A stretch of 38,714 nucleotides of DNA from positions 1 to 38,714 of IMG/VR virus record IMGVR_UViG_3300020419_000888; one strand, 5' to 3'. The translations under genes were made by a program, and so were the position numbers. This document shows, in pieces, positions 6,328 through 33,188 of the stretch. The notes below the pieces were generated by a model. That model made no database searches, had not been told where the DNA came from, and was given only the letters and a program-made list of their open reading frames with translations. Origin of the DNA: a virus. Position 1 is the first letter of the stretch, and each line of letters begins with the position of its first letter.

Positions 6328-7018
6328 ATTAAAAGTATTTGTAGGTTACGACACTAGAGAAGATATAGCATACCAAGTATGTAAGCACAGCATTATTACT
6401 AGAAACAAGGACATTGATGTGCGTCCACTTAAACAACAAGAGCTAAGAGATACGGGATGGTATACACGACCAATTGATAAACTAGCATCAACAGAATTTA
6501 CTTTTACAAGATTTTTAATACCGGAACTTACTAATTATGATGGCTGGGCTGTATTCATGGACAGTGACATGATTCTTACCACAGACATAAAAGAACTGTT
6601 TGATCAAGCAGATGATCAATACGCAGTGATGTGCGTTCAGCATGATTACAAAGTAACTGAGAGTACAAAGATGGACGGTCAAAAACAAACAATCTATCCA
6701 AGAAAGAATTGGTCAAGTATGGTCCTATGGAATTGTGGACACCCTAGTAATAAGACAGTAACAAAAGATTTTGTTAACAATCCTGAAATTACAGGAGCAT
6801 ATCTACATAGATTTAGTTGGCTAAAGGATGAAGAAATTGGTAGCCTTAATCATACATGGAATTATTTGATGGGAGTATACAGCGATATAGAAAAACCAAA
6901 ATTGATACATTATACAGAAGGTGGTCCTTGGTTTGAAAATTATAGATACTGTGATTATCACCAACTTTGGAAGAACGAATTACACAATATGATGCACGGA
7001 GCAGATAATGGAAATTAA
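6314..7018 (+). CDS. Glycosyltransferase, GT8-like (DxD)
   Basis: Begins at a TTG with a strong GGAGG, giving (M)REDRLKVFVGYDTRED. This YDTRE opening is typical of phage GT8-like transferases. FTFTRFLIPELTNYDGWAVFMDSDMIL holds the DSD metal and nucleotide-sugar motif (about residues 77-79). KLIHYTEGGPWF supplies the H-x-x-G-x-x-(K)PW end motif of GT8. A retaining glycosyltransferase using a nucleotide sugar is expected; acceptor unknown. It overlaps the cupin fusion by 14 bases and the next gene by 11. Confidence 0.75.
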   Translation: MREDRLKVFVGYDTREDIAYQVCKHSIITRNKDIDVRPLKQQELRDTGWYTRPIDKLASTEFTFTRFLIPELTNYDGWAVFMDSDMILTTDIKELFDQADDQYAVMCVQHDYKVTESTKMDGQKQTIYPRKNWSSMVLWNCGHPSNKTVTKDFVNNPEITGAYLHRFSWLKDEEIGSLNHTWNYLMGVYSDIEKPKLIHYTEGGPWFENYRYCDYHQLWKNELHNMMHGADNGN

Positions 7019-7850
7019 ACCAAAGATGCTTATGATCGATGGTTCGGACGAAATACTTAAACATTGGCAACTAGGAACCAATGCAGTAGTAATTGATAGG
7101 AAAGATATATCCAGTAAACTGCATGAATCACCTTGGCCTATTGATATACCTGTAACTTTTAGAAGCATGACTAAGCGTAAAGAAATTTGGAAATGCTGGG
7201 ATAGTGGTAGACCTTTCTATTATGTAGATAATGGTTACATGGGTAATCTAATGAAAAAGAAGATATGGTATAGGGTTGTAAAAAATAATATACAACACAC
7301 AAAGATTCGTTCTAACATGCCGCCGGATAGATTCAATTTGCTTTTAGGAAGAGCTCCTTATATGAGTTACATGGGCAGGAAAAATCCTAGAGAACAAAAC
7401 GGTCCAATACTGCTTGTTACACCATCTGAAAAGCCTTGTCAATTTTATAAAGTTGATAAAGATACATGGGTTAAAGATACTATTGCAGAGCTACGAAAAT
7501 ATACTAATAGAGAAATTATTATAAGAGAAAAAGGGCTGAGACCAGATCGAATAAAAGATAATAGTGTTGCACATGAATGTTTCAAAAAACAAATTTATGC
7601 AGTTGTAACATATCAAAGTATGGCGGCATTAGAGGCAATGCACTTTGGTATTCCTGCATTTACAATGGCTCCTTCTTGTGTTGATTCAGTATCTAATAAA
7701 AATTTAGCTGACATAGAAAAACCGTTTTATCCACAAGCAGAAGTGTTCCAAAACTTATTGAACTATCTAGCATACTGTCAATATACTGTTCAAGAGTTTC
7801 ATGCCGGACATGCCTATAGAATGATAGAAGAGATGAAGTTATATGATTAA
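7008..7850 (+). CDS. KpsC/KpsS-like glycan synthesis protein, paralogue 1
   Basis: A 280-residue protein. The C-terminal half has REIIIREKGLRPDR, YAVVTYQSMAALEAMHFGIPAF and SVSNKNLADIEKPF. These correspond to the conserved blocks (RPHP, a T/S-containing loop, G-I-P, and a 'diff N-L-x-x-I-E-x-P' end) of capsule polysaccharide proteins of the KpsC/KpsS type. It has two paralogues downstream (7843 and 9622); this copy has the least canonical RPHP block (REKG). A glycosyltransferase acting on capsule or LPS is expected but not shown. Confidence 0.6.
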   Translation: MEIKPKMLMIDGSDEILKHWQLGTNAVVIDRKDISSKLHESPWPIDIPVTFRSMTKRKEIWKCWDSGRPFYYVDNGYMGNLMKKKIWYRVVKNNIQHTKIRSNMPPDRFNLLLGRAPYMSYMGRKNPREQNGPILLVTPSEKPCQFYKVDKDTWVKDTIAELRKYTNREIIIREKGLRPDRIKDNSVAHECFKKQIYAVVTYQSMAALEAMHFGIPAFTMAPSCVDSVSNKNLADIEKPFYPQAEVFQNLLNYLAYCQYTVQEFHAGHAYRMIEEMKLYD

Positions 7851-8790
7851 TAAACCATTAAAAGTTAATGCATATATGGCGGCTATTCCTCCAGGAAATA
7901 AAAATCCTGAAAAGCCGAAGCTAATAGAATACTTCATACAAGGTGTTCAGAAGGCAGGCGATAAAGGACAGATTATCAATAGTTTTACGTTTGAACCTGC
8001 AGACGTTGGTGTATTACAAGGATACGTTCATCCTGCAAGTAAACATGTTCCTCATTTAAATTTACGTAGATCTGTTTTAGCAGGACAAAAAGAACTACGC
8101 AGACGAACAGTTATAGCTGATGCAAATTTATTCCTAGCCTACGATCCAGGAAATAGTAATACATATTTAAGGTACAGTTACGATGGCATTTTTCCTAATG
8201 AAGGAGAATACTGCGACAATAGGATAGATCCAAATAGATGGGCAACGTTACGTGACAAACTTAACATACAGATAAAGCCGTGGAAAAGGTATGGGGATTA
8301 TATTTTAATTACATGTCAAAGAGACATGGGTTGGAGTATGCAAGGAACACCTGTAATAGAATGGTTACATAAAGTATTACAACAGTTAAGAAAAGTTACA
8401 GATAGACCAATACAGGTAAGATTTCATCCAGGAGATAAAAAGAATCACAAACATATGATGCAACTACAAGCTATAGGGCATAAGGTAAGATACAGCAGTC
8501 CTAGTGTAAGTTTATTAAAAGACTTACATGATGCATATTGCGTTATAAGTCATAATAGTAGTCCAGGAGTTGTTTCTGCTATAGAAGGCGTTCCTATTTT
8601 TGTATTAAATCCTGAAAGAAGTCAAGCGGCAGAAGTAGCAAATAAAGATTTGAATACTATAGAAAATCCTAGCTTTGAATATGATAGAGAGTCTTGGCTA
8701 CGAAGATTAGCAATGAGTCATTGGAGGTTAGACGAGTTACAGTCAGGTGACTGTTGGAAACATATGAGGAACTGGGCATGGACAGATTAG
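7843..8790 (+). CDS. KpsC/KpsS-like glycan synthesis protein, paralogue 2
   Basis: A 315-residue protein with the same C-terminal order as its paralogues: RPIQVRFHPGDKK (the RPHP-like block), YCVISHNSSPGVVSAIEGVPIF and ANKDLNTIENPSF, then a W-x-x-x-L-A-x-x-x-W-x-x-D-E-L tail. The N-terminal part (YFIQGVQKAGDKGQIINSF) is its own. The serine-rich loop and following helix are typical of the nucleotide-sugar-binding half of a GT-B-like fold. Overlaps both neighbours. Product glycan unknown. Confidence 0.65.
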   Translation: MINKPLKVNAYMAAIPPGNKNPEKPKLIEYFIQGVQKAGDKGQIINSFTFEPADVGVLQGYVHPASKHVPHLNLRRSVLAGQKELRRRTVIADANLFLAYDPGNSNTYLRYSYDGIFPNEGEYCDNRIDPNRWATLRDKLNIQIKPWKRYGDYILITCQRDMGWSMQGTPVIEWLHKVLQQLRKVTDRPIQVRFHPGDKKNHKHMMQLQAIGHKVRYSSPSVSLLKDLHDAYCVISHNSSPGVVSAIEGVPIFVLNPERSQAAEVANKDLNTIENPSFEYDRESWLRRLAMSHWRLDELQSGDCWKHMRNWAWTD

Positions 8791-9632: not shown

Positions 9633-10473
9633 TTTATGGACGGACAATGGTGCACTTAATTCTAAACCTATTTTTAGTGCCTTTGCTACTTGTCTTCACA
9701 ATCACGGTCACGATGTTTTGTATAATGATATGGATGGGGATATCCATGTTATTTGGAGCGTACTATGGTATGGTCGAATGGCTCCGAACAAGATTGTTTG
9801 GGACGAAGCTAAGAGACAAGGAAAAAGAGTAATTGTATTAGAAGTAGGTGGTATAAAAAGAGGTACTACTTGGAAGGTCGGGCTTGACGGAATCAATAGA
9901 GAAGCAATCTTCGGATCCACTGGTAACGACAGCAGAAGGGCTGATAAGCTAGGACTTAAACTCAAACACTGGCAATTAAATAATGAATATGGTGATATTA
10001 TAATTGCCTGCCAACATGCAAAAAGCCATCAATGGCGTAATCAAAAGAGTGTGCAAACATGGGTATTTAATTCTATTGAATTATTAAGACAACATACAAA
10101 TAGGAAAATAATTGTAAGGCCGCACCCGAGAGATCCTGTTCAAGGTATACAGCATGAATTTAAAAATGTTATTTTACAAATACCCTCACATGTTCCAAAC
10201 ACATATGACGATTTTGATTTTAATCCTTCTAATGCATACGCAGTGGTTAACTGGTCAAGTAACCCAGCAACACAGGCAGTTATGCAAGGGATACCTGTAT
10301 TCGTAGGTCCTGATAGCTTGGCGTTTGATGTAGGTAACACAAATCTTGCAAGTATCAATGCTCCGCTGATGCCTGACAGAACACAATGGTTAAATGATAT
10401 TGCATATACAGAGTGGACTTTGGATGAAATAGAACAAGGAATACCCTTTAATCGCTTGACAAAATACCTATAA
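9622..10473 (+). CDS. KpsC/KpsS-like glycan synthesis protein, paralogue 3
   Basis: A 283-residue protein and the most canonical of the three. RKIIVRPHPRDPVQ has the full RPHPR block, followed by YAVVNWSSNPATQAVMQGIPVFVGPDS and NTNLASINAPLM, then WLNDIAYTEWTLDEIEQG. The N-terminal WSVLWYGRMAPNKIVWDEAKRQGKRVIVLEVGG resembles the first Rossmann half of KpsC-type proteins. Last gene of the glycan run; 17 bases of AT-rich DNA separate it from the next gene. Confidence 0.65.
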   Translation: MKFSLWTDNGALNSKPIFSAFATCLHNHGHDVLYNDMDGDIHVIWSVLWYGRMAPNKIVWDEAKRQGKRVIVLEVGGIKRGTTWKVGLDGINREAIFGSTGNDSRRADKLGLKLKHWQLNNEYGDIIIACQHAKSHQWRNQKSVQTWVFNSIELLRQHTNRKIIVRPHPRDPVQGIQHEFKNVILQIPSHVPNTYDDFDFNPSNAYAVVNWSSNPATQAVMQGIPVFVGPDSLAFDVGNTNLASINAPLMPDRTQWLNDIAYTEWTLDEIEQGIPFNRLTKYL

Positions 10474-14079: not shown

Positions 14080-14354
14080 GTCGATCTCTTGTAAAACAAG
14101 GACTCATACCAGGACAAGCACTAATCTACGAAAGAGCTAACGGAGTCACTTATGCTCGTTATCGCGATCCACCACACAACATGATCGAACGATGGGTAGT
14201 TGGCGGCGAACCTAAAGCCGTTGCAGAAGCAATGGGAATTATAGATTACGACGAATGGAAAGATATAATGATGACTTCTGAGAAGAGTGTTACTTTACAA
14301 AAACTAATTGAAAAATTAAGAACGACTTATCATCTTGTAAGGACAAAAGAATGA
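14076..14354 (+). CDS. Small conserved phage protein, unknown function
   Basis: A 92-residue basic protein beginning MSRSLVKQGLIPGQALIYER with ARYRDPPHNMIERWVVGGEP. I recall near-identical openings in hypothetical proteins of marine T4-like phages. It overlaps the cupin by 4 bases and kdsA by 4, so it is tightly embedded. No enzymatic motif is seen; the Arg/Lys-rich strand region could bind nucleic acid, but this is speculation. Confidence 0.6.
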   Translation: MSRSLVKQGLIPGQALIYERANGVTYARYRDPPHNMIERWVVGGEPKAVAEAMGIIDYDEWKDIMMTSEKSVTLQKLIEKLRTTYHLVRTKE

Positions 14355-15136
14355 GAATAATAGCAGGACCATGTCAACATGAAAGTGTTTTAGAATCTTT
14401 TGAGATAGCTTCCTATTGTAGAAATGTATGTAAAGAATTAGGTATAGAATATATTTTTAAAGCAAGTTTTGATAAAGCTAATAGAAGTAGTAAAGATGGA
14501 ATAAGAGGCATTGGTTTAGAAAAAACAATGCGAGACTTTAGTCTAGTAAAAAATAAGCACGGCGGAAAATTAGACATATTAACTGATGTACATACTATCG
14601 AACAGGTAGAGCTAATTAATTCTAATTACTCTGACATCGTTGATGTATTACAAATTCCTGCATTTTTATGCAGACAAACTGATTTGATAAAGGCCGCTTG
14701 TGCTACAGGCAAGATAGTAAATATTAAAAAAGGCCAGTTCCTTGCACCCTGGGACGTAAAAGGTATACTGTCAAAGACAGCAGGTGCCAAGGAAGTTTGG
14801 ATAACAGAGAGAGGAACAAGTTTTGGTTACAATACCCTTGTTGTTGACTTTACTGGCTTGGATTACATGCTTAATAACTACGATAATCCTATTGTGCTTG
14901 ATGCCACACACTCCGTACAGAAGCCAGGCGGTAATGGAGACAGTAGCGGCGGCAATCGCGATTACGTTCCTGGTTTATGCAGGGCCGGCAGTGCTTTGGG
15001 GATTACAAACTTCTTTTTAGAAGTTCACCGTGATCCTGATAACGCACCTAGTGATGGACCTAACATGGTACACTTAAAAGACTTTTATAACATAGTTAAG
15101 GACATACATGCGTACAGCTATACTAATACCGGCTAG
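14351..15136 (+). CDS. kdsA: KdsA, 3-deoxy-D-manno-octulosonate-8-phosphate synthase
   Basis: A 261-residue enzyme joining arabinose-5-phosphate and phosphoenolpyruvate into Kdo-8-phosphate for the lipopolysaccharide core. Conserved blocks appear in order: IAGPCQHES, FKASFDKANRSS, LCRQTDL, NIKKGQFLAPWD, ERGTSFGYN, DATHSVQKPGG and the SDGPNM end. The Cys in AGPC, His in ATHS, Glu in FLEVH and Asp in SDGP match the four metal ligands of the metal-dependent class (as in Aquifex KdsA). It overlaps kdsB by 29 bases. Confidence 0.9.
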   Translation: MRIIAGPCQHESVLESFEIASYCRNVCKELGIEYIFKASFDKANRSSKDGIRGIGLEKTMRDFSLVKNKHGGKLDILTDVHTIEQVELINSNYSDIVDVLQIPAFLCRQTDLIKAACATGKIVNIKKGQFLAPWDVKGILSKTAGAKEVWITERGTSFGYNTLVVDFTGLDYMLNNYDNPIVLDATHSVQKPGGNGDSSGGNRDYVPGLCRAGSALGITNFFLEVHRDPDNAPSDGPNMVHLKDFYNIVKDIHAYSYTNTG

Positions 15137-15794
15137 ATATGCTAGTACAAGATATCCAGGCAAACCTTTAGTTAAACTGGACGGCGTACCTATGATTAAA
15201 CGTGTAGCAGATGCGGCTCGTGAGTCAGGGTTGCCAGTATATGTTTTAACTGATGATGTGCGTGTTGCAAATTGTGTTAACACTGAGTATACCGTTTTAA
15301 TAGAAGATGCAGAATACGAAAACGGTACTGAAAGGTGTGCCGGAGCTCTAAGCCAAGACTACTTAGACAAGTACGATCAGTTTGTAAATGTACAAGGCGA
15401 CATGCCCGATGTAACTGTAGAAATGATTGAGAGATGTGTCCAGTGGCTAAAGTATTATCCCATTAGTACAGTATGGACTGACATGCCAAAAGAAATGCAA
15501 GATAATCCTAGCTCTGTTAAAATGGTAACAGCAGGCGATAAAGCACTATGGTTTGGCAGAGGTATGACAGGATACGGAAACTGGCACTTAGGTATATATG
15601 GATACCAACGTAGTCCGTTAGAATTGTATTCAACATTAGAACTTACTACAGAAGAGAAAGTTGAAAAGCTAGAACAACTACGATGGCTTAAGGCAGGTTG
15701 GGATATAGGTTGTTCAAGGGTAGAATTTAACGGAGTAGAAATAAACACTCAAGAAGATATCCATTTATGGAATTATAAGAATGAGCGAATATAA
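15108..15794 (+). CDS. kdsB: KdsB-like CMP-Kdo synthetase
   Basis: A 228-residue protein that would activate Kdo with CTP. ILIPARYASTRYPGKPL is the KdsB signature loop, followed by YVLTDD, ENGTERCAGAL and QFVNVQGDMP. Bacterial KdsB usually has NVQGDEP, so the Glu is replaced by Met here. It is slightly shorter than the usual 245-250 residues. With KdsA it gives two of the three dedicated steps from arabinose-5-phosphate to CMP-Kdo; the phosphatase KdsC is not clearly present. Confidence 0.85.
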   Translation: MRTAILIPARYASTRYPGKPLVKLDGVPMIKRVADAARESGLPVYVLTDDVRVANCVNTEYTVLIEDAEYENGTERCAGALSQDYLDKYDQFVNVQGDMPDVTVEMIERCVQWLKYYPISTVWTDMPKEMQDNPSSVKMVTAGDKALWFGRGMTGYGNWHLGIYGYQRSPLELYSTLELTTEEKVEKLEQLRWLKAGWDIGCSRVEFNGVEINTQEDIHLWNYKNERI

Positions 15795-18568: not shown

Positions 18569-19083
18569 AACTAGAACTTATTAAACATCCAAGTGAATGG
18601 TTGTCAAAGAAACTAGATCCATGGGACTTTGACAACCCTCCAATGGATCCAGCAGATATGAAACAACAGATGCTGAGAATTATGAAGGCAAATCTTGGTA
18701 TTGGACTATCAGCTAATCAAGTTGGAATCAATGCAAGAGCATTTGTTATGGTCAGCAACAATGCAACAAACAATCAGATGGATAGAGAACTACTTTGTAT
18801 TAATCCTGAAGTGGTTGAGAAAATAGGTGAAGATGTTCCTATGTGGGAAGGTTGTTTAAGTTTTCCCGGAGTAAATGTACAAGTAGTACGTAACCATAAG
18901 ATCAAAGCTAAATGGCATCTACCTAACGGAACAGTAAAGGAAGACATTTATGTAGGTTATGATGCAGTATGTTTTCAACATGAATTAGATCATCTAGACG
19001 GTGTTACATTTGATCAACATGTTGCTCCTGTAACTTGGAGACAGGCAGTAGAAGATGCAAAAAAGAAATTAGACAATGCCTGA
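18565..19083 (+). CDS. def: Peptide deformylase
   Basis: A 172-residue enzyme that removes the formyl group from new polypeptides. ATG 18565 has GGAGG 8 bases upstream, so I prefer it to ATG 18550. All three motifs are present: GLSANQVG (residues 48-54, motif I GxGxAAxQ variant with Ser for Ala), EGCLSFPG (95-102, metal Cys97) and QHELDHLDG (138-146, metal His139 and His143). Phage deformylases are known from marine phages and are usually core-only, as here. It overlaps the next gene by 8 bases. Confidence 0.9.
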   Translation: MKLELIKHPSEWLSKKLDPWDFDNPPMDPADMKQQMLRIMKANLGIGLSANQVGINARAFVMVSNNATNNQMDRELLCINPEVVEKIGEDVPMWEGCLSFPGVNVQVVRNHKIKAKWHLPNGTVKEDIYVGYDAVCFQHELDHLDGVTFDQHVAPVTWRQAVEDAKKKLDNA

Positions 19084-19639
19084 TATAGATATAGACTTTG
19101 CCGATAGAGATGATGTATTAGCAAGACTAAAACATAGAGTAGCTAAACTGGACTCAGGCAAAAAACATAACACAGGAATCTATGTGACAGAAGTGCCACA
19201 TAATCCTGTGGATATGATATCTACTATTGATTATAAAACTGCTGAAGATAGAGGCTACTTCAAATTAGATTTTCTAAACGTTAGCATCTATGATAAAGTA
19301 AAAGACGAACAACATCTAAAAGAACTTATGAGTAAAGAACCAATGTGGGAGTTACTCGAACACAAAGACTTCAGTGACAAGCTCTTTCATGTTTCGGGAC
19401 ATGAACAAGTGCTTAACAAAACAAAACCAGATAGCATAGAAAAACTTGCGGCGGTATTGGCAATGATTAGGCCAGCGAAAAGATATCTTATAGGCAAACC
19501 TTGGCAAGACATATTATCAGAAGTATGGGTAAAACCAACAGACGGATCCTACTATTTTAAAAAGGCACATGCTATGAGTTATGCAGTAGCAGTAGCAGTA
19601 CACATGAATTTAATATGCGAGGAAGTAAATGCAGTATGA
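19076..19639 (+). CDS. Miniature DNA polymerase III alpha-like protein
   Basis: A 187-residue protein that begins exactly at the DnaE active-site motif: MPDIDIDFADRDD (Asp5 and Asp7 would be the two catalytic acids), then YFKLDFLNVSIYD with Asp65 as third acid. LFHVSGHEQVLNK...LAAVLAMIRPAKRY and FKKAHAMSYAVAVAVHM match later DnaE blocks. The PHP domain, the GRGS block and the tau-binding region are absent. Whether it polymerises DNA is unknown; marine phages carry similar proteins. Overlaps the deformylase by 8 bases. Confidence 0.75.
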   Translation: MPDIDIDFADRDDVLARLKHRVAKLDSGKKHNTGIYVTEVPHNPVDMISTIDYKTAEDRGYFKLDFLNVSIYDKVKDEQHLKELMSKEPMWELLEHKDFSDKLFHVSGHEQVLNKTKPDSIEKLAAVLAMIRPAKRYLIGKPWQDILSEVWVKPTDGSYYFKKAHAMSYAVAVAVHMNLICEEVNAV

Positions 19640-25326: not shown

Positions 25327-25360
25327 CTTTGCTTAGGCACATAGGCAATTGGAGGCTATT

Positions 25361-26989
25361 ATGAAAACAGACTTAGAAAATATACAATTACTCTTGGACC
25401 GAGTTAAACGTCCAATACCAGATACAGAAGAATACAAAACAAGACTAGCAGAAGAATTTGAACTCATTCTTAATCAAAGATTTACTGATTACTTTCTACA
25501 AATTTGCGACATCATCGATATAACCGAAGACCTTACACACATGACAAGAGGGTCTGCAGGCAGTAGCTTGGTATGTTATCTATTAGGTATAACTGATGTT
25601 GATCCTATCAAGTGGAACATTCCTGTTGCACGATTTATGAATCCATTACGTGATGACTTACCAGATGTTGATATAGATTTTCAACATTGGAAACAACATG
25701 AAGTTATGAATAGAATATTTAAAAGATGGCCAGGAAAAACTGCACGACTATCTAACTATGTTATGTTTAGAGAAAAGAGTGCAAAGAAAGAAGCGGCTAA
25801 ACGTTTAGGAGCAAAAGGAAATTTACCAAGAAACTTTACGTATGAATCAGTAGGTGTTGATCCTAAAGAAGCAAAACGTTTAGAAAGAAAACTGATAGGA
25901 AAGAAACGTGCTATATCAAAACATTGTGGAGGTATAGTTATGTTTACAAGACAGTTACCTAAAAGTTTAATATCACAGGATAATCAAATACTGCTAGACA
26001 AATATGAAGTAGAAGACTTAGAACATCTTAAAGTTGATGTGTTAGCTAACAGAGGACTGTCACAACTATTAGAGATTGATGAAATAACACAACTAAGACA
26101 CTATCCTGAAACAGATGAAGCTACTAGCGAACTGTTGTGTAGAGGAGATGTGCTAGGTGTTACACAAGGTGAGTCGCCAGCTATGCGAAGATTGTTTAGA
26201 GCACTGCAACCAAAGTCAGTAAATGATTGTGTGTTTGCTACTGCTATGATACGTCCTGTAGCAATGTCGGGTAGACAGAAAGCGGCCATGTTTCAAAACT
26301 GGAGTCAAGAAGCTGTACAAGATGCCATTGTGTTTGAAGATGATGCCATTGATATTATTTCAAACATTATAGGTGTTGACATGTACGAAGCAGATATGTA
26401 TCGAAGAGCATTTGCTAAAAAGAACGATGAAAAGATTTTAGAATTTATAGAACGTATGGGCGGACATCCAAATAAGAATGAAGCAATGCAGGCTTTACAG
26501 AGTTTATCAGGATTTGGTTTATGTAGAGCTCACGCAGTTAACTTAGGCAGATTGATTTGGGCGTTAGCATATCAAAAAGCACATAACACAAAAGAGTTTT
26601 GGCAAGCAAATATTAAACATTGTCAAGGCTCATATCGTTCTTGGGTATATCAATGTGAAGCACATAGACTAAACATTCCAACCAAAAGTGGTTGGTGGTG
26701 GCATGGCTTTCCAAAACGGTTGGGTGTAAGACAACAATGGATGGATCGTGTTGAGTTTGCAGGAGTTATTGCTAACGGTAGATGTTATAGAGGTAATAAA
26801 GGTAGATGGATTACTTTCTTAACATTAGGCACAGACTACGGAGAATACATTGATGTAGTTGTACAAAAACCCTTTTCATATAGAGATGGAGATATTGTAC
26901 ATGGTTCAGGAAGAGTGAAACACTCTAACAACTCAGACTATATAGATAGTAATGATGTTAAAAGTTATACGTTTGCGGAGTGGCGATGA
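25361..26989 (+). CDS. DNA polymerase III alpha-like protein without PHP domain
   Basis: Start at ATG 25361, 5 bases after GGAGG. The protein has 542 residues, half the size of DnaE. Key blocks in order: MTRGSAGSSLVCYLLGITDVDP (61-82, GRGSxAGS), PDVDIDF (101-107, catalytic D104 and D106), LEHLKVDVLANRG (third Asp226), PKSVNDCVFATAMIRP, RAHAVNLGRLIWALAYQKAH and a C-terminal OB-like module (VEFAGVIANGRCYRGNKG). The PHP domain and tau-binding region are missing. Either a trimmed polymerase or a relic accessory; a second, smaller homologue lies at 19076. Confidence 0.8.
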   Translation: MKTDLENIQLLLDRVKRPIPDTEEYKTRLAEEFELILNQRFTDYFLQICDIIDITEDLTHMTRGSAGSSLVCYLLGITDVDPIKWNIPVARFMNPLRDDLPDVDIDFQHWKQHEVMNRIFKRWPGKTARLSNYVMFREKSAKKEAAKRLGAKGNLPRNFTYESVGVDPKEAKRLERKLIGKKRAISKHCGGIVMFTRQLPKSLISQDNQILLDKYEVEDLEHLKVDVLANRGLSQLLEIDEITQLRHYPETDEATSELLCRGDVLGVTQGESPAMRRLFRALQPKSVNDCVFATAMIRPVAMSGRQKAAMFQNWSQEAVQDAIVFEDDAIDIISNIIGVDMYEADMYRRAFAKKNDEKILEFIERMGGHPNKNEAMQALQSLSGFGLCRAHAVNLGRLIWALAYQKAHNTKEFWQANIKHCQGSYRSWVYQCEAHRLNIPTKSGWWWHGFPKRLGVRQQWMDRVEFAGVIANGRCYRGNKGRWITFLTLGTDYGEYIDVVVQKPFSYRDGDIVHGSGRVKHSNNSDYIDSNDVKSYTFAEWR

Positions 26990-28460: not shown

Positions 28461-29233
28461 AAACACTTTGGATATACGGAGACAGCTTTGGTGTTGATTG
28501 GAAGGTTGATTGGGGTTGGCAACGACAACTAACACAAAAATTAAATGTAGACAAGGTTGTAAATCAAGCATGTAGTGGTAGTGCTAACGAATGGGGAGCA
28601 AAACTTTTCAAGAGTGATCAGCAGAAGAAAGGTGACATTGTAATTTTCTTTCTGACTCAAACTGCTAGGCAATGGTTTTGGGAAGACCGACCATACCTAT
28701 CTAACCTAACAAGCATTATGAATACTAAAGATGCAAGTGAACTAAAACAAAAAGAACAAGACAAATATGATGCGGCTATGAGCTATTGGTTACATCTACA
28801 GAGAGATGATATTGATCAATTGAGATTTGAACACATGCTTGACAGTATACGTGTGCAGATGATAGAACGTGAATTACATTTACAAGTTATTCCTAGTTTC
28901 AATCTAAATATCAATTGGACTGATTTGGTTCCTTGTCACGGATCAATGACCTTTTCAGTAGGAGATGCAGAGTTTACTGCTGATTCTGAAATGGAAAAAT
29001 GGTACAATGAAAGTATAGACACAAGAGCTAATCACATGACCTTGGCTAACCATTTAGTGTTTGCTGACAAGCTATACAGACGTTTTACTAACAACGAACC
29101 TATTAATTTGGAAACTGAATTTGAAACAGGTTTCCTAAAAAACACAGACAAGATTAAACATCCAGGACTATGTCCTGAACTAATTGAATTGGCAAAACAA
29201 CCTGGTAATAAAATATCATTTCCGATTGACTAA
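28457..29233 (+). CDS. SGNH-like hydrolase-family protein
   Basis: A 258-residue protein. LWIYGDSFGVDW is the GDSF nucleophile block (Ser at residue 10) and VNQACSGSANEWG the Gly/Asn block. An Asn-x-Asp-like stretch follows in the middle. The closing His-type block is less clear (ANHMTLANHLVFADKLY is the best candidate). Third member of the SGNH-like group in this window. Cytosolic; role unknown. It is followed by a hairpin and a promoter. Confidence 0.7.
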   Translation: MKTLWIYGDSFGVDWKVDWGWQRQLTQKLNVDKVVNQACSGSANEWGAKLFKSDQQKKGDIVIFFLTQTARQWFWEDRPYLSNLTSIMNTKDASELKQKEQDKYDAAMSYWLHLQRDDIDQLRFEHMLDSIRVQMIERELHLQVIPSFNLNINWTDLVPCHGSMTFSVGDAEFTADSEMEKWYNESIDTRANHMTLANHLVFADKLYRRFTNNEPINLETEFETGFLKNTDKIKHPGLCPELIELAKQPGNKISFPID

Positions 29234-29254
29234 ACCTAAGGTTTAGTATAAAAT
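29226..29254 (+). promoter_or_regulatory. Sigma70-like promoter with a hairpin in the spacer, for the DUF6580/TonB pair
   Basis: TTGACT (29226-29231, overlapping the SGNH stop) and TAAAAT (29249-29254) are 17 bases apart. The spacer holds a 7-bp inverted repeat CTAAACC-TAA-GGTTTAG (29230-29246). The transcript would start about 3 bases before ATG 29264, almost leaderless. The hairpin could also be a weak terminator for the gene upstream. Confidence 0.45.
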
Positions 29255-29263
29255 ACTATACAC

Positions 29264-29737
29264 ATGAAATCCAACATATTTTATTTTATTCTGTTTGTTT
29301 GCAGTATAGCGGCCAGCAGGATAATTCCACACCCTCCAAACTTTACTCCAATACTTGCTATAGCAGTAATGGCTCCTTTACTGACAGGCAATGTCATGTT
29401 AGGAATAGTTTTATCATTAAGTTCTATGATACTATCAGATTTATATTGGGGATATCACAACACAATTGGATGGGTTTATTTTTCCATAGCATTAAGTAGT
29501 TTGCTAACAAGGTATATTAACAATGCATACTTGGCTGGTATAGGTGCCAGTATACTATTCTTTGTTGTAACAAACTTTGCAGTTTGGCTATCAGGATATT
29601 ATGGATTTACTATGGAAGGATTATTAGCTTGTTACATAGCGGCTATACCTTTCTTCCAAAACACAATAGCAGGCACATTAATTTACATTATGATTATAAA
29701 GAGTATTGTGTCTGTACAAAGGAGGATATATGCGTAA
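29264..29737 (+). CDS. DUF6580-like integral membrane protein
   Basis: A 157-residue protein with five or six hydrophobic segments. RIIPHPPNFTPILAIAVMAPLL, ILSDLYWGYHNTIGWVY, FFVVTNFAVWLSG and EGLLACYIAAIPFFQNTIAGTL match the DUF6580 pattern (P-N-F-T-P, S-D, N-F-A-V-W, C-Y-x-A-x-P-F-F). The shape recalls ECF-transporter substrate-binding (S) components, a comparison I make from topology only. It is upstream of and overlaps by 8 bases the TonB receptor, so it may help take the receptor's ligand across the inner membrane. Confidence 0.65.
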   Translation: MKSNIFYFILFVCSIAASRIIPHPPNFTPILAIAVMAPLLTGNVMLGIVLSLSSMILSDLYWGYHNTIGWVYFSIALSSLLTRYINNAYLAGIGASILFFVVTNFAVWLSGYYGFTMEGLLACYIAAIPFFQNTIAGTLIYIMIIKSIVSVQRRIYA

Positions 29738-31526
29738 ATTATTTTTTGCGTTTCTTTTACTTGCTACCACACTAGGTACAATGTATACAACCACAGCAAT
29801 GGCGGCGATGGAGATAACGATTTATCTTACTCGTAGTAATACGGATCAAGCTACTGCTACAACTACATACGATACAGTTAGTTCTTACACAATGAGAGCT
29901 ACGAACGTGCAGGACTTTGTAAGTTCAGTTAACAATATAACCGGACTGTCATTAGTCCAGAGCGGACCAACAGGACAAAACGTAAGCCTGTTTATGCGTG
30001 GTGGTGATAGCAATCACACATTAGTTACTATGAATGGCATACCTATCAAGGATGCTTCTACAACCAACGGCCTACATGACTTCGGAAACAACTTCATGGC
30101 ATCAATATCAGCCATTGAGATAATAAAGAATCCCAGTGGGGCTCTTGTAGGACCAAACTCAATAGGTGGAGTAGTTAACTTTATTACAGGTGACTTTTAC
30201 GAAAACAATATAACGTTCAAAGCTGGCTCTAACAATACTAGAGGAGTGTCAGTACAACTAACTGAAACAAAAAACAACACGTCATACAACATAGCAGTTG
30301 ACGGATTAACATCAGACGGAATAAGCATAAAGGACGGTAATGAAAAAGATGGGTACATTGCTAGAGACTTTATGGTAAGCACTAGAACAATAATAGACGG
30401 AGGTTACTTCAAAACAAACTTCATAGCAAAAAACAATGATGTTGATCTTGATGGTACATCAGATGATGCTGATTACACAGCCGAAAATCTAAACCATATC
30501 TATCAGTTCATACTGAAAAAAGATAACAAGTGGGGACATACTGATCTCGCAATAGGACACACTACCTATGATAGAACCTACACCAATGGTAATGAAGTTG
30601 ATACTTACGATAGTGCAACAACAAACTACATACTCAGTCAAACTATAGAAAAGGACAAAATTGATTTTGTGCCTGGCATTGAGTATGAACATTCAGAAGC
30701 CAAGTTCAACAACACAGGATCTTACACAAGTTCAGTTGATGCATATCATTATAACACTGCATACTTTCTAAATTCAAATTGGAAAGCCACAGACAAAACA
30801 ATGATAAGCTCAGGTATCAGACTAGACACATTAGAAGACTATGATGATTATTATACACACAAGTTGGGTGCATACTATCTGCTTACTGATGACATCAAGC
30901 TGAGAACCAATTGGTCCAACTCCGTTAGAACTCCTACACTGTATGAAAAGTATGGTGCAGACAGTTATGGATACTCAGGTAATTCTGCACTGAATGTTGA
31001 AAAGGGAGAAACACTGGACGTTGGAATATCAGTTGGCAAGTTTGATCTTGTTTACTACACAACAGACATAACAGATGCTATCACATATGGTAACTCAACC
31101 TATAGCAATGTCACTGGTACCAGCAATAGAGATGGAATAGAATCTACGTTCAACTATGATATAAATTCCAATTGGAATCACAACATAGGAGCTCACTGGA
31201 GCCAAGCAGAAGATTCAAACGGCACTGAATTACTGCGTAGACCAAAGTGGACAGCTAACCAGAGCCTTACAAGAAACAAGGACAAGTTTACCACAACTGT
31301 GTCACACAGATACACAGGCGAGCATGTTGATTTGGACAGTTCAACCTATGCTAGAAAAGAAATGAACGACCTACATCTGTTTGACTTTCATCACTCAATA
31401 GCAATGAACGAGAACACCAATATCACTGCTAGTATCATGAACATAACTGATGAAGACTACGAAAGACCAGATGGTTATAACCAAAATGGTAGAACGTGGT
31501 TTCTCAGCTATAACATGAAATTTTAA
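29730..31526 (+). CDS. TonB-dependent outer-membrane receptor, BtuB-like
   Basis: Start ATG 29730 has GGAGG 4 bases upstream. The product is about 598 residues, the size of BtuB. A signal peptide (MRKLFFAFLLLATTLGTMYT, cut near AMA-A) is followed by a TonB-box-like EITIYLTR. The plug domain has NITGLSLVQSGPTGQNVSLF, MRGGDSNHTLVTMNGIPI and NPSGALVGPNSIGGVVNF. A barrel follows with the BtuB-like NWSNSVRTPTLYEKYG, ending WFLSYNMKF with the terminal Phe used for barrel insertion. It looks intact. Energised uptake of a ligand such as cobalamin, heme or a siderophore is expected. Confidence 0.85.
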   Translation: MRKLFFAFLLLATTLGTMYTTTAMAAMEITIYLTRSNTDQATATTTYDTVSSYTMRATNVQDFVSSVNNITGLSLVQSGPTGQNVSLFMRGGDSNHTLVTMNGIPIKDASTTNGLHDFGNNFMASISAIEIIKNPSGALVGPNSIGGVVNFITGDFYENNITFKAGSNNTRGVSVQLTETKNNTSYNIAVDGLTSDGISIKDGNEKDGYIARDFMVSTRTIIDGGYFKTNFIAKNNDVDLDGTSDDADYTAENLNHIYQFILKKDNKWGHTDLAIGHTTYDRTYTNGNEVDTYDSATTNYILSQTIEKDKIDFVPGIEYEHSEAKFNNTGSYTSSVDAYHYNTAYFLNSNWKATDKTMISSGIRLDTLEDYDDYYTHKLGAYYLLTDDIKLRTNWSNSVRTPTLYEKYGADSYGYSGNSALNVEKGETLDVGISVGKFDLVYYTTDITDAITYGNSTYSNVTGTSNRDGIESTFNYDINSNWNHNIGAHWSQAEDSNGTELLRRPKWTANQSLTRNKDKFTTTVSHRYTGEHVDLDSSTYARKEMNDLHLFDFHHSIAMNENTNITASIMNITDEDYERPDGYNQNGRTWFLSYNMKF

Positions 31527-31636: not shown

Positions 31637-31658
31637 CTAGGTTAAACACCTAGTTTTT
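31637..31658 (+). terminator. Rho-independent terminator after the TonB receptor
   Basis: CTAGGT-TAAAC-ACCTAG forms a 6-bp stem with a 5-base loop, followed by TTTTT. It is on the plus strand after the receptor gene and before the convergent minus-strand operon. The stem is weak, so termination may be partial. The rest of 31527-31693 shows no gene. Confidence 0.5.
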
Positions 31659-31920: not shown

Positions 31921-32094
31921 CTACTCAGCAGTTTCTGGCACACAGGTGTATGCCTTTCCAGGGTCTGCTGTCTCCTGGCTCCACACTGCGTTTTGCCAAC
32001 ACTCGTGTGCATCATAGTAATGGTCTATTGCTTCACCTGTTACAGTTCCATCACCTAGGAACCATACCACTACCAGTATATAGCCCAACTGCAT
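31921..32094 (-). CDS. Small secreted or membrane-anchored protein with a cysteine pair (paralogue B)
   Basis: A 57-residue frame, ATG at 32094 to TAG 31921-31923. It overlaps the heme oxygenase stop by one base (TAATG). It starts MQLGYILVVVWFLGDGTV and continues with HYYDAHECWQNAVWSQ and AYTCVPETAE. The hydrophobic start, an aromatic-Cys-Trp block and a second Cys repeat the plan of the gene downstream. It lies wholly between two clear genes of the same operon, which supports it being real. Confidence 0.6.
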   Translation of the reverse strand: MQLGYILVVVWFLGDGTVTGEAIDHYYDAHECWQNAVWSQETADPGKAYTCVPETAE

Positions 32095-32627
32095 TATTCT
32101 TCCAATTCTTTAAACAGTCGCATGGCATATTCAAAGCAGACATTTGCTTCGGGGGCCATGCCATCATGTAGCTGTGCTCTAACGTCTGCTATCAGCTGTT
32201 TGGCATCATCAAAGTCATACATCTTGCCTGATCCTGGTGCCTTGCGTTTGATCATCTGACCACCATGCAGTTCACCAAAGTGTCTTACGTATAGGTGTGC
32301 CAGTATGCCATCATCGTCCAGTGACTCCACATAGCTGGTGTACTCATGTACCACGGGACACAGTTCGGTTGAGCCTCTGTCATAGCCATGCTGTTGTTCC
32401 AATTCCTTTAGGTCTTCCACCATGCCTGGTACTCTGCATATACCTTCTATGCCTTTGAGTAGTCCTCTTTCACGTGCTTGGTCTTCCAATGCTCCATACT
32501 GTATGCATTGGTTGTATATGAATCTGTGATACTCCTCTGGTTCCATTCCCTTGAGCAGTTTACGAGCATGTCCCATGCGTTCTGCTTTCTTATGGTTTTC
32601 CCAGGTTAGTTCTTTTAGTTTGCTCAT
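32094..32627 (-). CDS. Heme oxygenase
   Basis: A 177-residue protein. KELTWENHKKAERM supplies the proximal heme-binding His (residue 12), equal to the T-x-x-x-H-x-x-A-E signature. HLYVRHFGELHGGQMIKRK is the distal helix, matching GDLSGGQ of HO enzymes with Asp-Leu-Ser replaced by Glu-Leu-His. It would open heme to biliverdin, iron and CO, using ferredoxin. It is shorter than plant and cyanobacterial enzymes (about 230-240). Its place between a secreted metalloprotease-like gene and two small exported proteins, beside a TonB receptor, suggests iron or heme use; a bilin role is the alternative. Confidence 0.85.
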   Translation of the reverse strand: MSKLKELTWENHKKAERMGHARKLLKGMEPEEYHRFIYNQCIQYGALEDQARERGLLKGIEGICRVPGMVEDLKELEQQHGYDRGSTELCPVVHEYTSYVESLDDDGILAHLYVRHFGELHGGQMIKRKAPGSGKMYDFDDAKQLIADVRAQLHDGMAPEANVCFEYAMRLFKELEE

Positions 32628-32636
32628 TGTGTTCTC

Positions 32637-33188
32637 CTAGTGCGTGTTGCCGTGCATTAGATCCTTGCCCGGACACATTGTTGCGAATACCACAAACAGA
32701 GCATCGTTCTTCTGTTCAGGATCAATCCGCTGTTGATCTATCCAAAGGTCCTGCAGTTTGAACGCATCACGTTCCAGTGCGGCCTTGCATTCAGCACGTT
32801 CATACTCACCATCATAGTACTGTACGAAGTGTACCAATTCATGCAGTAGCACCACTTCGGTGAAATGATCCTTGACCATGTGTTCAGTTGGTTGATCAAC
32901 TATCACTATCAAGTTGGCATCATGATCATAGTAGCCTGCTATGTTGCAGTTCTCGTGTGGCTCACTGTCAGGATATGTTGCTGTGCATATCTCAAGCCGT
33001 GTGTGTATTTCAACACGTGGATATGCATCTCCATGATACTGATAACGACTGTTGTCCACTATCCACTCTACCATCTGTTCAACGGGTGTTACACCCTCAA
33101 AGAATATGCTCTGTCCTAGATAGGCAAAAGCATTCACGGGCAGTGTGAACAGCCACAGTACGAAGCTAAGTTTGATCAATCTCTGCAT
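32637..33188 (-). CDS. Secreted HELVH zinc-metalloprotease-like protein
   Basis: A 183-residue protein. The signal peptide MQRLIKLSFVLWLFTLPVNA (cut after AFA at about 22) sends it to the periplasm or outside. VVLLHELVHFVQYYDG holds HELVH (residues 116-120, two His ligands and the catalytic Glu). AECKAALERDAFKLQ contains a Glu that could be the third ligand. Cys at about 68, 81, 134 and 172 could form disulfides. It resembles DUF6647-type small exported zincins. First gene of the operon with heme oxygenase; the promoter is not obvious. Confidence 0.75.
   Translation of the reverse strand: MQRLIKLSFVLWLFTLPVNAFAYLGQSIFFEGVTPVEQMVEWIVDNSRYQYHGDAYPRVEIHTRLEICTATYPDSEPHENCNIAGYYDHDANLIVIVDQPTEHMVKDHFTEVVLLHELVHFVQYYDGEYERAECKAALERDAFKLQDLWIDQQRIDPEQKNDALFVVFATMCPGKDLMHGNTH

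Follow-up and report, generated by a model that had tools for sequence, protein, structure and literature searches.

The window examined here, the whole 38,714-nucleotide stretch of the linear IMG/VR virus record IMGVR_UViG_3300020419_000888, contains an intact gene for a TonB-dependent receptor that overlaps, by 8 nt, a gene for a small membrane protein of the family DUF6580; both are preceded by a promoter-like sequence and followed by a terminator-like hairpin. The features of this locus are as follows.

29226 to 29254, plus strand: sigma70-type promoter TTGACT-17-TAAAAT, function inferred; the expected transcript start is at about 29261
29264 to 29737, plus strand: DUF6580 membrane protein of 157 aa with about six membrane helices, proposed as an inner-membrane cobalamin (corrinoid) translocator
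29718 to 29725, plus strand: Shine-Dalgarno sequence AAAGGAGG of the receptor gene, inside the 3' end of the DUF6580 gene
29730 to 31526, plus strand: BtuB-like TonB-dependent receptor of 598 aa
29730 to 29804, plus strand: probable signal peptide MRKLFFAFLLLATTLGTMYTTTAMA
29811 to 29834, plus strand: TonB-box-like segment EITIYLTR
29850 to 30173, plus strand: plug domain (PF07715, residues 41-148)
30396 to 31391, plus strand: the part of the beta-barrel covered by the Pfam match (PF00593, residues 223-554); the barrel itself should run to the terminal Phe
31637 to 31653, plus strand: intrinsic terminator-like hairpin followed by a T run, after the receptor gene

The receptor start codon at 29730 is supported by the Shine-Dalgarno sequence just before it, which is the same in the related viral contig L004. 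The plug and barrel domains score above the Pfam gathering cut-offs (57.1 vs. 23.9 bits, E 2.9e-15, and 79.2 vs. 27 bits, E 7.7e-22), and the partner scores above that of PF20221 (120.4 vs. 27 bits, E 1.2e-34). The N-terminus resembles a signal peptide, as read from the sequence without running a predictor; the EITIYLTR-like segment, assigned as a TonB box by its position and thus by inference, and the terminal Phe598 are conserved in five viral copies. The barrel was to be checked by modeling, but a structure prediction of the receptor from only five sequences reached a pLDDT of just 33; the barrel therefore rests on profile matches. Among curated families, the receptor scores best against the vitamin B12 receptor BtuB (TIGR01779; 175.1 bits over positions 59-611 of 614, compared to 74 for heme receptors), and BtuB is also its best match in the PDB (1NQE and others); yet this score falls well below the equivalog cut-off of 599.7 bits, identity is low (about 23-30% in the stretches aligned), and the receptor is not a BtuB orthologue by this criterion. 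Cobalamin binding and transport were not assayed.

The gene upstream of the pair ends at 29233, and the short gap holds most of the promoter. A plain scan finds no excess of such promoter sites over chance (15 found, 13.9 expected), and matches in the region are no more numerous than in shuffled sequence; however, a TTGAC[A/T]-17-TAxAxT site lies 7-9 nt before the DUF6580 ATG in all five viral contigs of this clade (11 of 12 matches in the four relatives; chance 0.0006-0.03 for each), which makes the promoter credible. Transcripts would therefore start almost at the start codon and be nearly leaderless. Near-perfect sigma70-type promoters also stand 6 nt before an ATG at window positions 10456, 21049, 34945, and 37453; near-leaderless transcription may be a general habit of this phage. 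A perfect inverted repeat, CTAAACC-TAA-GGTTTAG, occupies the promoter spacer (29230-29246) and was not seen in the four relatives.

The surrounding genes are phage replication genes, including DnaB-like and UvsW-like helicases, primase, and pieces of a DNA polymerase of the Pol III alpha type. Four further viral contigs, here termed L002 to L005, carry the same overlapping pair (receptors 59-71% identical) in the same order behind DnaB, DUF6065, nitrilase, and SGNH-like genes. The closely related copies in L002 and L003 have a dN of 0.019 against a dS of 0.090, and other pairs have high or saturated dS with much lower dN; the genes evolve under purifying selection. The preliminary description of this locus, which had been made from sequence alone, reported a full-length BtuB-like receptor in an overlapping pair with a DUF6580-like membrane protein, under a separate sigma70-like promoter in a T4-like phage context; this observation is confirmed, except that the T4-like context is only roughly right. 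The nearest known DnaB helicases come from 286-kb PA5oct-type jumbo phages at 56% identity, and jumbo-phage kin is closer; the Gp23 major capsid gene is absent from the fragments of this clade but present in 21 of 50 viral contigs with related genes, an outcome that leaves a T4-like affiliation undecided. The polymerase III alpha pieces lie 6 kb apart on the plus strand (19076-19639 and 25349-26989); the 546-aa piece is also found in L004 but is missing between DnaB and DUF6065 in L003 and L005.

To place the pair in a wider context, DUF6580 loci were sought in bacterial and viral sequences. Simple peptide scans for DUF6580, and for receptor relatives in genomes, found nothing; a scan with an alignment that included one made-up row, used only to steer it to the PHPPNFT and TNFAVW motifs, found 473 bacterial and 84 viral loci, of which 80 and 79 were kept. 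A receptor lies within 250 bp of DUF6580 in 39 of 80 bacterial and in 42 of 83 viral loci of the working set; the remaining 41 viral DUF6580 genes have no detected receptor beside them. When an alternative partner was looked for at these receptor-less viral loci (L088, L103, L124, L129, L149, and others), the neighbors were replication and other phage genes (primase, clamp loader, DnaB, chaperonin, NAD synthase) and no B12 gene; those of the L088 type overlap a recurring 120-aa ORF of no known identity.

In bacteria, the receptor/DUF6580 unit stands directly behind cobalamin riboswitches, in 8 of 8 loci first tested (SAR11, SAR116, Bacteroidota) and in 29 of 50 others; several of the latter have a longer ORF of roughly 750 aa in the place of the receptor, which in one locus (L020) was confirmed as a receptor. 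Most of the genomes with a hit gave a single cobalamin riboswitch site, so that chance neighborhood is not an explanation. An AdoCbl-II riboswitch is also present in 16 of 50 viral contigs; in the four loci read in detail, it lies just upstream of the DUF6580-receptor pair. In L112, part of a 243-kb contig that also has a Gp23 capsid gene, riboswitch, DUF6580, and receptor lie between a T4-like terminase and gp32-, UvsX-, and UvsW-like genes, identified by reading the translations. In contrast, no riboswitch was found in the window, even at permissive thresholds, or in its four close relatives. On L164, a 20.5-kb contig classed as viral that may be bacterial, an AdoCbl-II riboswitch (9884-9976) directly precedes a lone DUF6580 gene; in a receptor-first phage group (L090, L098, L099, L108), glutamine riboswitches lie about 0.5 kb upstream of the receptor gene.

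In the receptor tree, all 37 viral receptors fall on one side of a branch with 99% support, next to 15 SAR11 receptors, the nearest bacterial receptors; the window falls in a 16-member viral set whose other main branch is the riboswitch-bearing group, and the 16 viral contigs with a riboswitch include 14 of this sister group. The simplest history, inferred and with the position of the root not established, would be one acquisition from a SAR11-like source, spread among phages, and loss of the riboswitch leader in the clade of the window. The SAR11 units behind AdoCbl-II riboswitches (for example L061, L072, and L041) consist of the same two adjacent genes but in the order receptor then DUF6580, whereas DUF6580 comes first here. 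A tree of DUF6580 itself was poorly resolved.

A profile of 114 DUF6580 proteins matches a single entry among 177,635 PDB sequences at E <= 10, chain A of 6FNP, with a weak E-value of 0.08; this entry is the B12 transporter ECF-CbrT (PMC5997447), and the identification of its 182-residue "membrane protein" chain as the S-component CbrT is our reading of the entry. A profile-profile alignment (hhalign) is colinear and near full-length, but also weak. The AlphaFold2 model of the DUF6580 protein is confident (pLDDT 94.3) and all-helical, and its best structural matches by TM-score include ECF S-components (0.66 for 4huq_S, 0.59 for TmRibU), but without significant E-values (E >= 1.4), so that these matches do not decide whether the protein has the six-helix S-component fold. 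A structure search against viral proteins returned nothing. The near-invariant residues include R19, PHPPNFT 22-28, D59, G63, N104, W108, Y113, C123, and P129-F130. No profile match was obtained to BtuM, the small cobalamin transporter (PMC6072759) to which DUF6580 could be compared as a membrane protein linked to a B12 receptor or to B12 uptake; CbrT, in turn, needs an ECF module. With regard to a cysteine acting as cobalt ligand, Cys123 is found in about 95% of DUF6580 but is Thr in L002, L003, and L005, and its position was not shown to be equivalent, which leaves this comparison unsettled. These three contigs have a shortened DUF6580 (L002 3279-3665, L003 9660-10046, L005 9654-10040), kept beside the receptor, that lacks the first helix with its conserved His23; the partner may have lost or changed function there.

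Taken together, the pair is best explained, with fairly good confidence, as a phage-encoded uptake module for vitamin B12 (cobalamin or other corrinoid) that is carried by several lineages of marine phages. In this view, the receptor goes to the outer membrane of the infected Gram-negative cell and, powered by the host's TonB, brings scarce B12 into the periplasm; the DUF6580 protein, an S-component-like membrane protein, then takes it across the inner membrane, alone as BtuM does or together with host parts. The riboswitch of related phages would switch the pair off when B12 is plentiful; in the clade of the window, a sigma70-type promoter right at the start codon would express the pair regardless of B12. 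The analysis itself demonstrates the genes, their pairing, conservation and synteny, the linkage to riboswitches in relatives, and the grouping of the viral receptors; transport, ligand, membrane topology, expression, the loss of riboswitch control, and the benefit to the phage are inferred from these. The interpretation offered in the preliminary description, that the receptor could supply cobalamin, heme, or iron to the infected cell, or replace or occupy a receptor to block rival phages, is thus supported in part: cobalamin is now strongly favored through the riboswitches of bacterial and viral relatives, while the other possibilities have little or no positive evidence and do not explain the partner gene together with the riboswitches.

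The use that the phage makes of B12 was not identified. A viral class II, B12-dependent ribonucleotide reductase was considered as the reason for the module and rejected; where RNR was found in these contigs it is accompanied by NrdB and is therefore class I, and TIGR02505 gave no real hit. No B12-dependent enzyme was found on the fragments of the window's clade, whose complete genome is unknown. Eleven of 33 viral contigs encode proteins matching the B12-binding domain; the two tested in full, and two beside the module in L146 and L153, are radical SAM proteins (L146 7007-8521, L153 8426-9952, L171 1375-3273, L172 1288-3048; most with a B12-binding domain match), so that some of these phages have their own likely B12 demand. 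Among the SAR11 genomes with the unit, 29 of 33 hold B12-binding proteins over the cut-off and 5 of 33 a class II RNR. A more far-reaching possibility, which is tentative and less likely than not, is that marine phages run their own regulated B12 supply line, an outer and inner membrane uptake pair, in one lineage governed by a phage-borne B12 riboswitch, that feeds phage-encoded B12-binding radical SAM enzymes or host B12 enzymes during infection; the lineage of the window would have dropped the switch for a near-leaderless promoter and so import B12 regardless of supply.

Among the alternatives (ALTERNATIVES), heme or iron uptake is the chief rival, although unlikely. A heme oxygenase, which could open imported heme for iron or bilin, is encoded about 570 bp downstream of the receptor on the minus strand (32094-32627; PF01126, E 1.6e-13) and also, by sequence likeness, in L004 (12145-12678); L003 instead has a ferrochelatase-like ORF near the pair (6956-8068), identified by reading only, and B12 and heme receptors share a fold. 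However, the heme oxygenase is convergent, is not in the operon, and is absent at the corresponding place in L003 and L005, while the riboswitch linkage of DUF6580 relatives, the partner gene, and the receptor family scores favor B12. Receptor replacement or superinfection exclusion is improbable; TonB-dependent receptors are common phage receptors, but this reading does not explain the overlapping inner-membrane partner gene, the conserved TonB-box-like segment, or the riboswitches on related viral contigs, and such an effect could be a side effect. Similarly doubtful is that the unit handles corrinoids by scavenging cobinamide or analogs, or as a sensor, rather than by uptake of intact B12; ECF-CbrT transports cobinamide as well as cobalamin (PMC5997447), and S-component folds also occur in receptors (PMC11109136), but no cobinamide-salvage gene was noticed next to the viral pairs inspected, which were not searched systematically for such genes. 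Misassembly with host DNA, named in advance as the finding that would overturn the observation, or host contamination, is excluded by the five contigs that keep the pair between the same phage genes and by the separate grouping of the viral receptors, even though their closest non-viral relatives are bacterial.

A search of phage genomes for the receptor had likewise been proposed as a check. Among 50,697 phage records, three queries found no DUF6580, and no close receptor was found; of the btuB hits, two Salmonella records are annotated with 16S rRNA beside btuB and so are host DNA, and the rest are distant (about 21-30% identity). A known TonB-dependent receptor in a marine phage, in the megaphage Mar_Mega_1 (PMC9723777), is annotated as a SusC-type carbohydrate receptor, with no DUF6580 partner or riboswitch mentioned. 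Riboswitches are stated to be rare in phages (PMC9004378), and B12-dependent marine phages with class II RNR have been suggested, as a speculation, to enhance B12 uptake, although a text search of that paper showed no uptake genes (PMC10547690); the open-access literature searched contained nothing on a phage B12 uptake operon or on DUF6580, a family of unknown function in Pfam. No such phage system was found in these phage records or in the open literature searched; its kind, an auxiliary metabolic module, is known. B12 is scarce in much of the surface ocean, and phages have been tied to it mainly through B12-dependent enzymes; a phage that carries the import machinery, and in relatives the B12 sensor too, would show that viruses regulate the vitamin acquisition of infected cells, and would put a proposed function on DUF6580. 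It also bears directly on the suggestion that marine viruses may enhance B12 uptake (PMC10547690), but in phages whose detected RNR is class I.

Elsewhere in the window, a secreted metallopeptidase-like protein (DUF6647, HELVH motif) is encoded beside the heme oxygenase on the minus strand (32637-33188), and homologues of KdsA and KdsB, for KDO synthesis, follow a long run of glycosyltransferase/SGNH-like genes on the plus strand (14351-15794), forming a surface-sugar cluster.
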